A stretch of 35,471 nt of DNA from an uncultured Thiotrichales bacterium (GTDB lineage: Bacteria; Pseudomonadota; Gammaproteobacteria; CAIRSR01): positions 1 through 35,471 of the forward strand of contig CAIJYR010000225.1 in assembly GCA_903824965.1 (NCBI GenBank), in the 5' to 3' direction. The notes beneath the pieces are model-generated. The model saw only the letters and a program-made list of their open reading frames with translations, had not been told where the DNA came from and did no database searches. Position 1 is the stretch's first letter; every line of letters begins with the position of its first letter. Shown here piece after piece: positions 5,585 through 15,783 of the stretch. The position numbers and the translations under genes are program-made.

Positions 5585-6400
5585 TTAAAAGCGATGCGCA
5601 AATCCGAAGGTGATATTCGCATCGGGCGTAGCTTTGTTGGCTGCAAGGTTCACTTCTGCATCCAACTGGGTGGTTTTATTCAGGAGATACGTCACGCCGA
5701 AGTCTGCGGTTGCCTGCGTTCGGAGAGTCCGCGTATGGTCTCCGTATAGCTCTGCATAGACACCGAAGGTATCGGTCACAGCATAGGTAAGGTTAGCGGC
5801 ACCGTAGGTGTCGTTAAGATAGGAAGTTTGACCCGCTGGATGTTTCGTATCCTCGGCTAGGGTTAAGGTGAGGCTTGTCTTGTCGTTTAGGCTGAGACTC
5901 CCCGTCGCAATGGCACCCCCTACTGTGCGATTGTCGAACACCCCTGCATTTTTGAGCTTTTTGTCAGCCGTTGGAGTGGTCACAAAACCAATGACCGCGA
6001 AGGCGGGGTTGTTGCCATCCGCTCCCATGAAGGTATGAAGCACACGGAAGGTTGTGTTTCCAAAACCCGAGGTGGACTGGCCCAGATCCGTTTGTCTGGT
6101 ATAGGGGGTCACAATCACCTGAACATCCGTTGCGTCGAAAAGACCATACCGGAGAGAGGTCTGTGCGAACTGATACTGATGACTGTGATCAGGGGGGGCT
6201 GAGGTGTTCGTATAGCTCGCAATCGCGGTTTCGACCTGGAAGTACCCCTTCGCTACGGCAACCGCGCCCTCTGCCTGGCCTGGGCGTCCAGAAATAAACG
6301 CTGGGTCACTGCTTGCAGCGTCGTCTGCGACCGAAGGGAGCGGGAACGCAACAGCCATCATTGCAAAAAGCGCAACGGTTTCTACTTTTTTCATTTTCAT
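5585..6400 (-). CDS. Predicted outer-membrane beta-barrel protein (transporter/MetA-pathway-like)
   Basis: From the ATG at 6400 the product is 271 aa and begins with a clear signal peptide (MKMKKVETVALFAMMAVAF..., likely cleavage after SVA near residue 25). The mature part is rich in alternating polar/hydrophobic segments, as in beta strands, and ends in Phe (FGFAHRF), the usual C-terminal signal for outer-membrane insertion. The pattern FQVETAIASYT...LRYGLFDATDVQVIVTPY resembles the putative MetA-pathway phenol-degradation/transporter barrel family. Substrate is unknown. An upstream in-frame start at 6478 would put non-signal sequence ahead of the signal peptide, so it was rejected. It is transcribed toward clpS but separated by 116 bp with a hairpin, so it is probably its own unit. 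Confidence 0.75.
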   Translation of the reverse strand: MKMKKVETVALFAMMAVAFPLPSVADDAASSDPAFISGRPGQAEGAVAVAKGYFQVETAIASYTNTSAPPDHSHQYQFAQTSLRYGLFDATDVQVIVTPYTRQTDLGQSTSGFGNTTFRVLHTFMGADGNNPAFAVIGFVTTPTADKKLKNAGVFDNRTVGGAIATGSLSLNDKTSLTLTLAEDTKHPAGQTSYLNDTYGAANLTYAVTDTFGVYAELYGDHTRTLRTQATADFGVTYLLNKTTQLDAEVNLAANKATPDANITFGFAHRF

Positions 6401-6917
6401 AGTCAGCCTACTTGGGGAGAAGAAAAAAAGGGGGTAAAAACAGAGATGCGGATCGTCAAAGCATCCGTTCCAGATCACGGTGCGGTACTGCGAAAGTTGC
6501 CTACCTTTTCCCGCGTGTACTCTGACTGCTGTCGGGATAAATCGTTCACTGTCGTCTTTTCAAACCTCGTGCACGGAGCGAAAGCGAACCCGATCGAAGT
6601 GTCTCCCCTCACTTCGAACCACCCCTAAGGTGAGCGTCCACGCAAAACCGCGCACTACAGAACATGAAGTTCTAGAAGCCTGTCGGAGGGTGTTCGGTCA
6701 ATCGATTGGACGTTCGCTGTGAGGTGATTTGTCCGGCTTTTGGGCAATCAACAAAGCGCCGCTGTCGGATCAGCCGAAGGAGGGATGCACACGCACAATG
6801 ATAAAACCGATCCCCATCTCGATCAAGACGCCATGAGGGGAACAGGGGGGATCGGGTGTGGTCTACATACAACGGAACAACCATGAACAACCGGTGGTTT
6901 CCAGGTGCAAGGAAACC
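6401..6917. other. 517-bp intergenic region, no gene seen
   Basis: No frame here looks like a real protein. It lies upstream of the barrel-protein gene and downstream of the repeat-protein gene, so it must hold the promoter of the former and the 3-prime end of the latter. An inverted repeat CCGATCCCC (6807-6815) / GGGGATCGG (6847-6855) has a roughly 31-nt loop. I see no tRNA, IS or clear terminator. Confidence 0.5.
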
Positions 6918-10991: not shown

Positions 10992-11105
10992 GTCAATCCC
11001 CGCCTAAAGGCGGAGGCTTGTGAAAATAAGCCTGGGATTGACCAGCCTGCGTCCGAACACTCGTCGGACTGCATTCATGAGCGGCGGAGTATTGCCCCTT
11101 CAAGG
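10992..11105 (+). ncRNA. Short structured element resembling the 5-prime part of an IscB-type omega RNA (HEARO-like)
   Basis: GTCAATCCC (10992-11000) pairs perfectly with GGGATTGAC (11034-11042). This encloses the hairpins CGCC/GGCG (TAAA loop) and GGCTT/AAGCC (11015-11032). A further hairpin GTCCGA/TCGGAC (11051-11069) follows. The longer element at 15135 has the same layout, with several stem positions changed in both arms. The end is set at the small CCCTT/AGGG hairpin near 11096-11105 and is approximate. From memory it resembles the HEARO/omega RNA family; an IS200/IS605 end is the alternative. Transcription from the tig-clpP promoter is plausible. Confidence 0.5.
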
Positions 11106-11176
11106 GTAAGGGCGGTAAGGGCGCTGCCTCAGCGTCTGGCGCTTGTTTGCAAGGGGACTGACCGACCCTGTAGGGC

Positions 11177-11218
11177 GCAGATTGAAGCAAGCAGATTGAA
11201 GCAAGCAGATTGAAACAA
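11177..11218 (+). repeat. Three tandem 14-bp repeats before clpX
   Basis: The unit GCAGATTGAAGCAA occurs at 11177, 11191 and 11205 (the last with one change). The array ends just before the clpX ribosome-binding site GGAGAG (11221-11226), so copy number would alter leader length only. Confidence 0.85.
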
Positions 11219-11231
11219 GCGGAGAGATTCG

Positions 11232-14991: not shown

Positions 14992-15021
14992 TTGACACAG
15001 GTTTTCAGTAGTTGGTATAAG
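14992..15021 (+). promoter_or_regulatory. Probable sigma70 promoter of hupB and the structured element
   Basis: TTGACA (14992-14997) and TATAAG (15016-15021) are separated by 18 bp, starting 31 bp after the lon stop. It is the only strong promoter-like pair I see between lon and hupB. Downstream are a hairpin CCTAC/GTAGG (about 15034-15051) and the structured element, so the hupB leader would be about 480 nt. Confidence 0.6.
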
Positions 15022-15134
15022 ACTTACCGAGCAACCTACATCGCCCACGTAGGTGGGTGGCGGGTTTGGTTTGCTCTTGATAAATTGTGCTCCGCCATGC
15101 GCTGGGAGTCCGGTGCTCCTTCAAGGGGATAAAT

Positions 15135-15490
15135 GTCAACCACCCCCGCCGCCTAAAGGCGGGGGCTTGTGAAAGCAAGCCTGGGGTTGACCAGCCTTAG
15201 TCCGGTTGCGAGCAATCGGACTACGTTGCAACGAAGTACAAGACTCATCCTGGGGCGCTTCCTCAACTCCAGGCTCTGAAAGCAGCAGATGCAGACATGC
15301 GACGGGTACGCACGAAACGATCTGTCGCGAGGTTCGCAAGAACCAAAGCTGCGTTGCAACAGTGGCGAGGGGAGCCACACTGCAAGGTGTGCGTCACTAG
15401 GCCCGTAAGGGCTGACAGCCGGGAAAGACCGGCACCTGACACTGACGGTTGCCCAAAACCGTCTCCTTTATATCCCAGCCCTTCAGGGCG
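15135..15490 (+). ncRNA. Structured RNA element, candidate IscB-type omega RNA (HEARO-like), no nuclease nearby
   Basis: An outer stem GTCAACC (15135-15141) / GGTTGAC (15185-15191) encloses CGCC/GGCG with a TAAA loop and GGCTTG/CAAGCC. Then follow AGTCCGGTTG/CAATCGGACT (15199-15222), GGTTC/GAACC (15331-15344), GTGGC/GCCAC (15362-15378), GCCC/GGGC (15401-15412), GCCGG/CCGGC (15418-15433) and GACGGTT/AACCGTC (15444-15463). A terminal GCCC-TTCA-GGGC hairpin (15478-15489) closes the element. Two copies of GTTGCAAC (15225 and 15353) can pair over a distance. Total length and architecture fit my memory of HEARO/omega RNA, whose guide is the 5-prime flank. It ends about 20 bp before hupB. No IscB, TnpA or TnpB gene is in the window. 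Confidence 0.6.
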
Positions 15491-15510
15491 GAGTTTCTCG
15501 GAGACTATTG

Positions 15511-15783
15511 ATGAACAAATCAGAACTGATCGATAAAGTGGCCGAGAAGGCAGATATTTCCAAGGCATCAGCGGGGCGTGCGGTAGATGCTTTTGTGGAG
15601 GCGGTAGCGGAGTCTTTGGAGGGCGGTGATGGCGTTACTCTGATCGGATTTGGTACTTTTTCCGTGCGTGAACGCGCCAGTCGCCCAGGCCGCAATCCAC
15701 GGACAGGTGCCATGCTGGAGATCAAAGCCAGCAAAACGGTTGGATTTAAGCCTGGTAAAACGCTTAAAGAACGGTTAAAATAG
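15511..15783 (+). CDS. hupB: DNA-binding protein HU
   Basis: HU is the small histone-like dimer that bends DNA and compacts the nucleoid. The 90-aa product has the usual length and the signature arm [20 protein letters not shown] (about 47-66). The ATG at 15511 is preceded by CGGAG (15499-15503); a TTG one codon earlier is less likely. In this cluster the position after lon is typical of hupB. Its stop is only 11 bp before tRNA-Val, so the tRNA may be read from the same transcript. Confidence 0.96.

Follow-up and report, generated by a model that had tools for sequence, protein, structure and literature searches.

The RNA upstream of hupB belongs to the HEARO family

What kind of RNA lies between lon and hupB, and what might it do directly in front of a start codon? 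The stretch of DNA analysed here, 35,471 nt long and referred to as the window, had been read from its letters alone, and this sequence-only reading described positions 15135–15490 as a hairpin-rich structured RNA resembling the HEARO/omega RNA associated with IscB. Using cmscan, we found that positions 15135–15380 match the Rfam family HEARO (RF02033) from end to end (model positions 1–211) at 110 bits (E = 4.8e-22), above the gathering score of 83, so the proposed resemblance was correct. Only one other HEARO match in the genome scores higher. Family membership rests on the RNA model, with no need for an adjacent ORF. HEARO RNA is the omega RNA of IscB nucleases (PMC9755519).

The fold bears out the hairpin-rich structure noted earlier: the element strand has a folding energy of −167.6 kcal/mol (z = −5.6 against dinucleotide shuffles), which 0 of 100 shuffles equalled. 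The GTCAACC/GGTTGAC outer stem proved to be the first helix of the HEARO model, and the long-range pairing suspected from the letters is the model's long-range helix, formed by two copies of GTTGCAAC at 15225–15232 and 15353–15360. The GCCC-TTCA-GGGC hairpin, taken in the first reading for the end of the RNA, is present at 15478–15489 as the inner hairpin of the right end, the element itself terminating at 15510. When 43 family members were aligned, 23 of the 56 predicted pairs showed compensatory changes. We conclude that the sequence at the hupB locus is a genuine IscB-type guide-RNA element (HEARO) without its nuclease gene; no iscB or HNH ORF adjoins it downstream, where hupB follows, and iscB occurs only on contigs C51 and C247.

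The element separates the hupB Shine-Dalgarno sequence from its start codon

Alignment of the genome's copies showed that the conserved unit continues beyond the Rfam model and stops sharply at a right end, GTTTCTCGGAGACATTG, after which comes ATGA. At hupB the whole element measures 376 nt (15135–15510, forward strand) and abuts the hupB ATG at 15511; the start first given, 15135, was right, and the end moves from 15490 to 15510. The omega RNA core (15135–15380) forms the left end. It is followed by the 3' hairpins of the stand-alone form (GCCC/GGGC, GCCGG/CCGGC and GACGG/CCGTC; 15381–15460), which in the aligned family partly replace iscB, and by the right-end hairpin (15461–15505), in which GTCTCC (15461–15466) pairs with GGAGAC (15500–15505) around the inner hairpin. 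Within the latter arm, GGAGA (15500–15504) is the predicted element-supplied Shine-Dalgarno sequence of hupB, 6 nt from the ATG and with an anti-Shine-Dalgarno duplex of −6.6 kcal/mol. On the same strand, hupB (15511–15783) encodes a 90-aa HU DNA-binding protein (Pfam Bac_DNA_binding, 4.8e-34), and its opening ATGA is the target-adjacent motif.

We compared the locus with its counterparts in one relative of the same genus (G001) and two of the same family (G002 and G003), this genome being G000. A likely hupB promoter (TTGACA ... TGGTATAAG; 14992–15020, forward strand) lies upstream of the element. We propose it because the motif TTGACAC-NN-GTTTT-NNN-TAGTTGGTATAA is kept at the same place in the hupB loci of all four genomes; a generic promoter scan did not list it, since that scan demands a final T. 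In the three relatives, hupB has no insert (the G001 orthologue is 94% identical) and its start codon is directly preceded by AAGGGGAcgaga, AAGGGGAcgaaa and GAGGGGAtgaac in G001, G002 and G003, respectively, with (A)GGGGA at the same spacing from the start codon in each. In this genome the order is AAGGGGAtaaat, then the 376-nt element, then ATGA. Alignment with these empty sites places the insertion exactly between the Shine-Dalgarno sequence and the start codon.

The 16 nt directly 5' of the omega RNA (15119–15134, forward strand), which contain AAGGGGA, are the putative guide, 16 nt being the guide length of IscB systems. Given the element-free sites in the relatives, this candidate guide corresponds to the old hupB ribosome-binding region. 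The comparison is consistent with the proposal of the sequence-only reading that a guide would come from the 5' flank ending at about 15134; its description of a stand-alone guide-RNA locus also holds, with pre-existing host DNA on the 5' side and no adjoining iscB. No second site matching the hupB guide and target-adjacent motif with up to 3 mismatches was found in G000, which gives no sign of trans-targeting of another of its own genes.

The window holds a second, degenerate HEARO element between clpP and clpX (10992–11231, forward strand), which ends GGAGAGATTCG directly before the clpX start codon (11232). Positions 10992–11127 scored 31.5 bits with cmscan, below the cut-off, and 44.8 bits with nhmmer and the family profile. 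The clpX gene of G001 is without such an insert. The omega RNA core of this copy is mostly gone, and a AGATTGAAGCAAGC-like short repeat lies near its right end.

Stand-alone copies derive from an iscB element

IscB is a nuclease of the Cas9-ancestor kind. That the window contains no IscB gene, as first stated, was confirmed; a genome search, which the same reading had asked for, found two broken iscB copies elsewhere. The iscB on contig C51 is a clear guided IscB (NCBIfam NF040563, 438 bits) that matches solved IscB structures. Its frame breaks just past the RuvC-III HALDAVCV motif, the C-terminal part being encoded in a different frame. This break (locus L138, about 1165–1185) lies within a short run of GT dinucleotides and could stem from slippage, phase variation or a sequencing error. 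In the second copy, on contig C247, 111 nt are inverted internally and the C-terminus is altered. The inversion (locus L139, contig positions about 6280–6440) covers an arginine-rich stretch and may reflect either a genuine rearrangement or an error of assembly. No further full iscB match was found in the G000 assembly (3.22 Mb in 265 contigs, 98.4% complete), so no intact IscB, as a functional OMEGA system needs, was seen there, although assembly gaps could hide another copy. Among the relatives, the IscB N-terminal family was detected in G002 and G003, as in G000, and had no match in G001; G002 has long open IscB frames. Sequence of iscB was present in about 20 of the 154 loci fetched, several of which are overlapping fetches of one gene.

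The C51 iscB element, whose left end is cut by the contig start, and the stand-alone copies have omega RNA sequence and right end in common. The C51 copy diverges past the equivalent of the GCCC/GGGC hairpin and rejoins the others at the right end. Because of these common parts, the alignment identifies the stand-alone copies as non-autonomous derivatives of the iscB element, in which a short hairpin stretch has taken the place of iscB. Non-autonomous IS200/IS605 derivatives of the MITE/PATE type likewise keep both ends, have lost the gene and reach high copy number; the hupB-type elements differ in that their interior is a structured nuclease guide RNA and the insert becomes a gene leader. 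Of the marks of such derivatives, ends in common with an autonomous element were found by way of the truncated C51 element, and a Y1 transposase (Y1_Tnp/TnpA) in the same genome was not found in G000; Y1_Tnp matches are present in G002 and G003.

HEARO elements are abundant in the source family

G000 contains 41 HEARO matches at E <= 0.1, the degenerate one before clpX among them, and 27 of the 41 reach E <= 1e-6; G002 has 68, G003 at least 106 and G001 none. HEARO and iscB are both present in G000, G002 and G003 and both absent from G001. When 185 gammaproteobacterial genomes sampled across the class were searched, HEARO was found in 4, two of which belong to the source family; the other two carry one copy each with iscB adjacent, the ordinary arrangement. 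The source family is a HEARO hotspot. Collection relied on intact right ends and so favoured better preserved copies, and in the fragmented assembly repeats break contigs. Exact-sequence scans of viral contigs found no copy of the element and so gave no sign of phage carriage.

In Ktedonobacter racemifer, Altae-Tran et al. (2021) reportedly described many stand-alone omega RNAs with no nuclease beside them, and few iscB genes. The elements studied here resemble these in both respects and occur in another phylum; neither placement at start codons nor replacement of the Shine-Dalgarno sequence is known to have been reported for K. racemifer.

Copies insert before ATGA and capture start codons

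Right ends taken from three genomes were directly followed by ATGA in 93 of 103 cases and by GTGA in 6 of 103, with copies ending GGAGACATTG immediately before ATGA. From these junctions, the copies are seen to insert immediately 5' of ATGA and, rarely, of GTGA. This preference is known already, as are stand-alone HEARO copies; Weinberg et al. reportedly described HEARO insertion 5' of ATGA/GTGA in 2009. HEARO elements themselves are also known, and what is new is the copy number and the capture of start codons. In their full-length covariance-model match, their insertion site and a guide side at the 5' end, the present elements agree with RF02033, whereas they differ in having no iscB attached, extra 3' hairpins and dozens of dispersed copies, and in lying on gene start codons and carrying a Shine-Dalgarno sequence.

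In G000, an ORF of at least 90 codons begins at 26 of 30 right ends, compared with 66 of 260 ATGA sites in the window (p = 3e-12). Set against the window's non-coding ATGA sites plus gene starts, among which 5 of 37 are starts (about 14% expected), the excess is stronger (p = 4e-19). Pfam families were matched by 21 of the 26 element-started ORFs. The captured genes include metH, nrfD, gspN, kaiB, an accC-like gene, ptsI, a glycosyl hydrolase 1 gene, flaG, pyrE, rpsH, rpoN, cyoC, atpE, a NUDIX hydrolase gene, hda, iscR and hupB. Some inserts lie inside operons, 14 nt past the upstream stop codon at ptsI, 23 nt at rpsH and 11 nt at the NUDIX gene. Element-free orthologous starts could be read in relatives for eight genes (hupB, metH, nrfD, accC, ptsI, pyrE, rpsH and iscR); at nrfD, homology between the 5' flank, gcagtaggacaccgacg, and the empty site of G001, cagcaggataccaacg, is plain to see.

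The association with starts varies with the age of the copies. G000 copies are old (nearest-neighbour divergence 12%) and 26 of 30 (87%) lie at starts, G002 copies are young (0.3%) with 15 of 37 (41%) at starts, and G003 copies (4%) have 13 of 32 at starts; G000 differs from G002 and G003 combined (Fisher p = 2e-5). Within G003, copies at starts are older than the others (p = 0.04), while the same nearest-neighbour comparison was not significant within G000 or within G002. As older copies are more often at starts, the pattern fits survival in harmless places rather than start targeting as such, two explanations that these data do not fully separate.

The right end carries a Shine-Dalgarno sequence

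Elements end in GGAGACATTG or GGAGACACTG, which puts GGAGA at a normal distance from the ATG. In all eight genes compared with relatives, GGAGA forms a duplex of −6.6 kcal/mol with the 16S tail, and it is kept in nearly all G000 copies. In each of the eight, the native Shine-Dalgarno sequence falls short of the mean strength of its orthologues (mean −3.6 versus −6.3; Wilcoxon p = 0.004), and it is gone at rpsH and accC. That of hupB, 5' of the element, is still strong, so the hupB flank has hardly decayed.

In 16 of 42 sequences, one pair of the GTCTCC/GGAGAC stem has undergone a compensatory change from U-A to C-G, and 95% of the stem's cells are paired compared with 92% in shuffles; G003 copies carry a GCCCGC/GCGGGC variant. 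Since GGAGAC is intact also in the few copies away from starts and is part of a covarying stem, its conservation need not reflect translation. Within G002 and G003, start association did not differ significantly between GGAG and other right ends (p = 0.12), and we therefore do not claim that translation maintains the Shine-Dalgarno sequence.

A mobile leader element and competing explanations

We consider it probable that the hupB locus carries a non-autonomous HEARO/IscB-type mobile element that acts as the hupB leader and has taken over the Shine-Dalgarno function. The element consists of omega RNA and right end, with iscB deleted, and splits the hupB Shine-Dalgarno sequence from the ATG. 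Transcription from the conserved upstream promoter would make the omega RNA the 5' leader of hupB, which it probably is, with the old ribosome-binding region as the likely guide. Translation would start from the Shine-Dalgarno sequence of the element, leaving the insertion nearly harmless. An IscB acting in trans, in the past or at present, would be guided by the omega RNA to cut an element-free hupB allele, recognised by its old Shine-Dalgarno region and ATGA, and such cutting would favour retention of the element. Guide function in G000 may have lapsed, because both iscB copies appear broken, while the role as leader and ribosome-binding site would keep copies in place.

A bolder version, which we doubt, builds on the target-adjacent motif being the start codon and on the Shine-Dalgarno sequence in the right end, and treats the guide-RNA transposon as a portable translation-initiation module. 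It would have captured ribosome-binding sites at dozens of housekeeping genes, and within the leader of each gene a copy would encode a putative guide against the element-free allele, with the right-end stem possibly co-regulating the genes. According to PMC13418256, TldRs are nuclease-dead TnpB repressors, and the possible outcome, a guide RNA aimed at a gene's expression signals, would be the same; here the guide RNA survives and the protein is broken.

That the hupB copy is simply a dead relic, without any present guide role and surviving, as an old non-autonomous transposon copy, through its harmless position and built-in Shine-Dalgarno sequence, is quite plausible, though we lean slightly against it. 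The broken iscB copies and the missing TnpA of G000 point this way, as do several copies that have lost the omega RNA core and kept the right end (L121, L131, L132, L135 and the clpX copy) and the loss, or original lack, of HEARO and iscB in G001. The hupB copy nevertheless scores 110 bits, an assembly of 265 contigs could miss an intact iscB, and the family shows many compensatory changes, which mostly record selection before or around insertion. It is unlikely that the copies form a working trans-acting guide array, in which a missed or partly retained intact IscB uses dozens of stand-alone omega RNAs to cut element-free alleles: the IscB and HEARO expansions coincide across the family and the long open IscB frames of G002 accompany nearly identical young copies, but in a genome 98.4% complete only two iscB loci were found, both disrupted.

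We give still less credence to a domesticated leader, in which the right end is an RNA switch that co-regulates hupB and other genes, with GGAGA hidden by GTCTCC or freed by CCGTC-GACGG pairing. The right-end stem could hide the Shine-Dalgarno sequence, and because GTCTCC/GGAGAC and the GACGG/CCGTC hairpin exclude each other through a common GTC segment, a switch is conceivable; the U-A/C-G covariation and the recurrence of the same leader before many housekeeping genes also favour it. A transposon right end would be expected to have such a stem as well, however, and non-start copies retain it too. An unrelated repeat or chance hairpins, for which no support was found, are ruled out by the full-length HEARO match and the family covariation.

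Under the favoured reading of a mobile leader element, the locus would show how an RNA-guided transposon can multiply to between about 40 and more than 100 copies even though the genome is compact, namely by landing where its motif is the start codon and replacing the ribosome-binding site that it displaces. The family offers stand-alone omega RNAs whose target sites are known, together with cognate IscBs that are nearly intact in sister genomes and with alleles free of the element. This natural collection makes directly testable both the use of RNA-guided nucleases to transposons and the fate of guides after the nuclease has died.

Variant copies in the relatives

Several groups of copies depart from the common form. 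A G003 subfamily (L150, L152, L154, L156 and L196) has the right end CTTCTCGCGGGCATTTG before GTGA; its members are among the highest HEARO scores, lie away from gene starts and have no Shine-Dalgarno-like end. A subfamily in G002 (L149, L151 and L218) keeps both element ends, but the middle of its omega RNA is quite unlike that of other copies and may represent a chimera or serve another IscB as guide RNA. Three short G003 inserts (L201, L228 and L231) consist of little but the right-end hairpin, its GGAGA standing in front of an ATGA, and look as though only the ribosome-site part were being kept.
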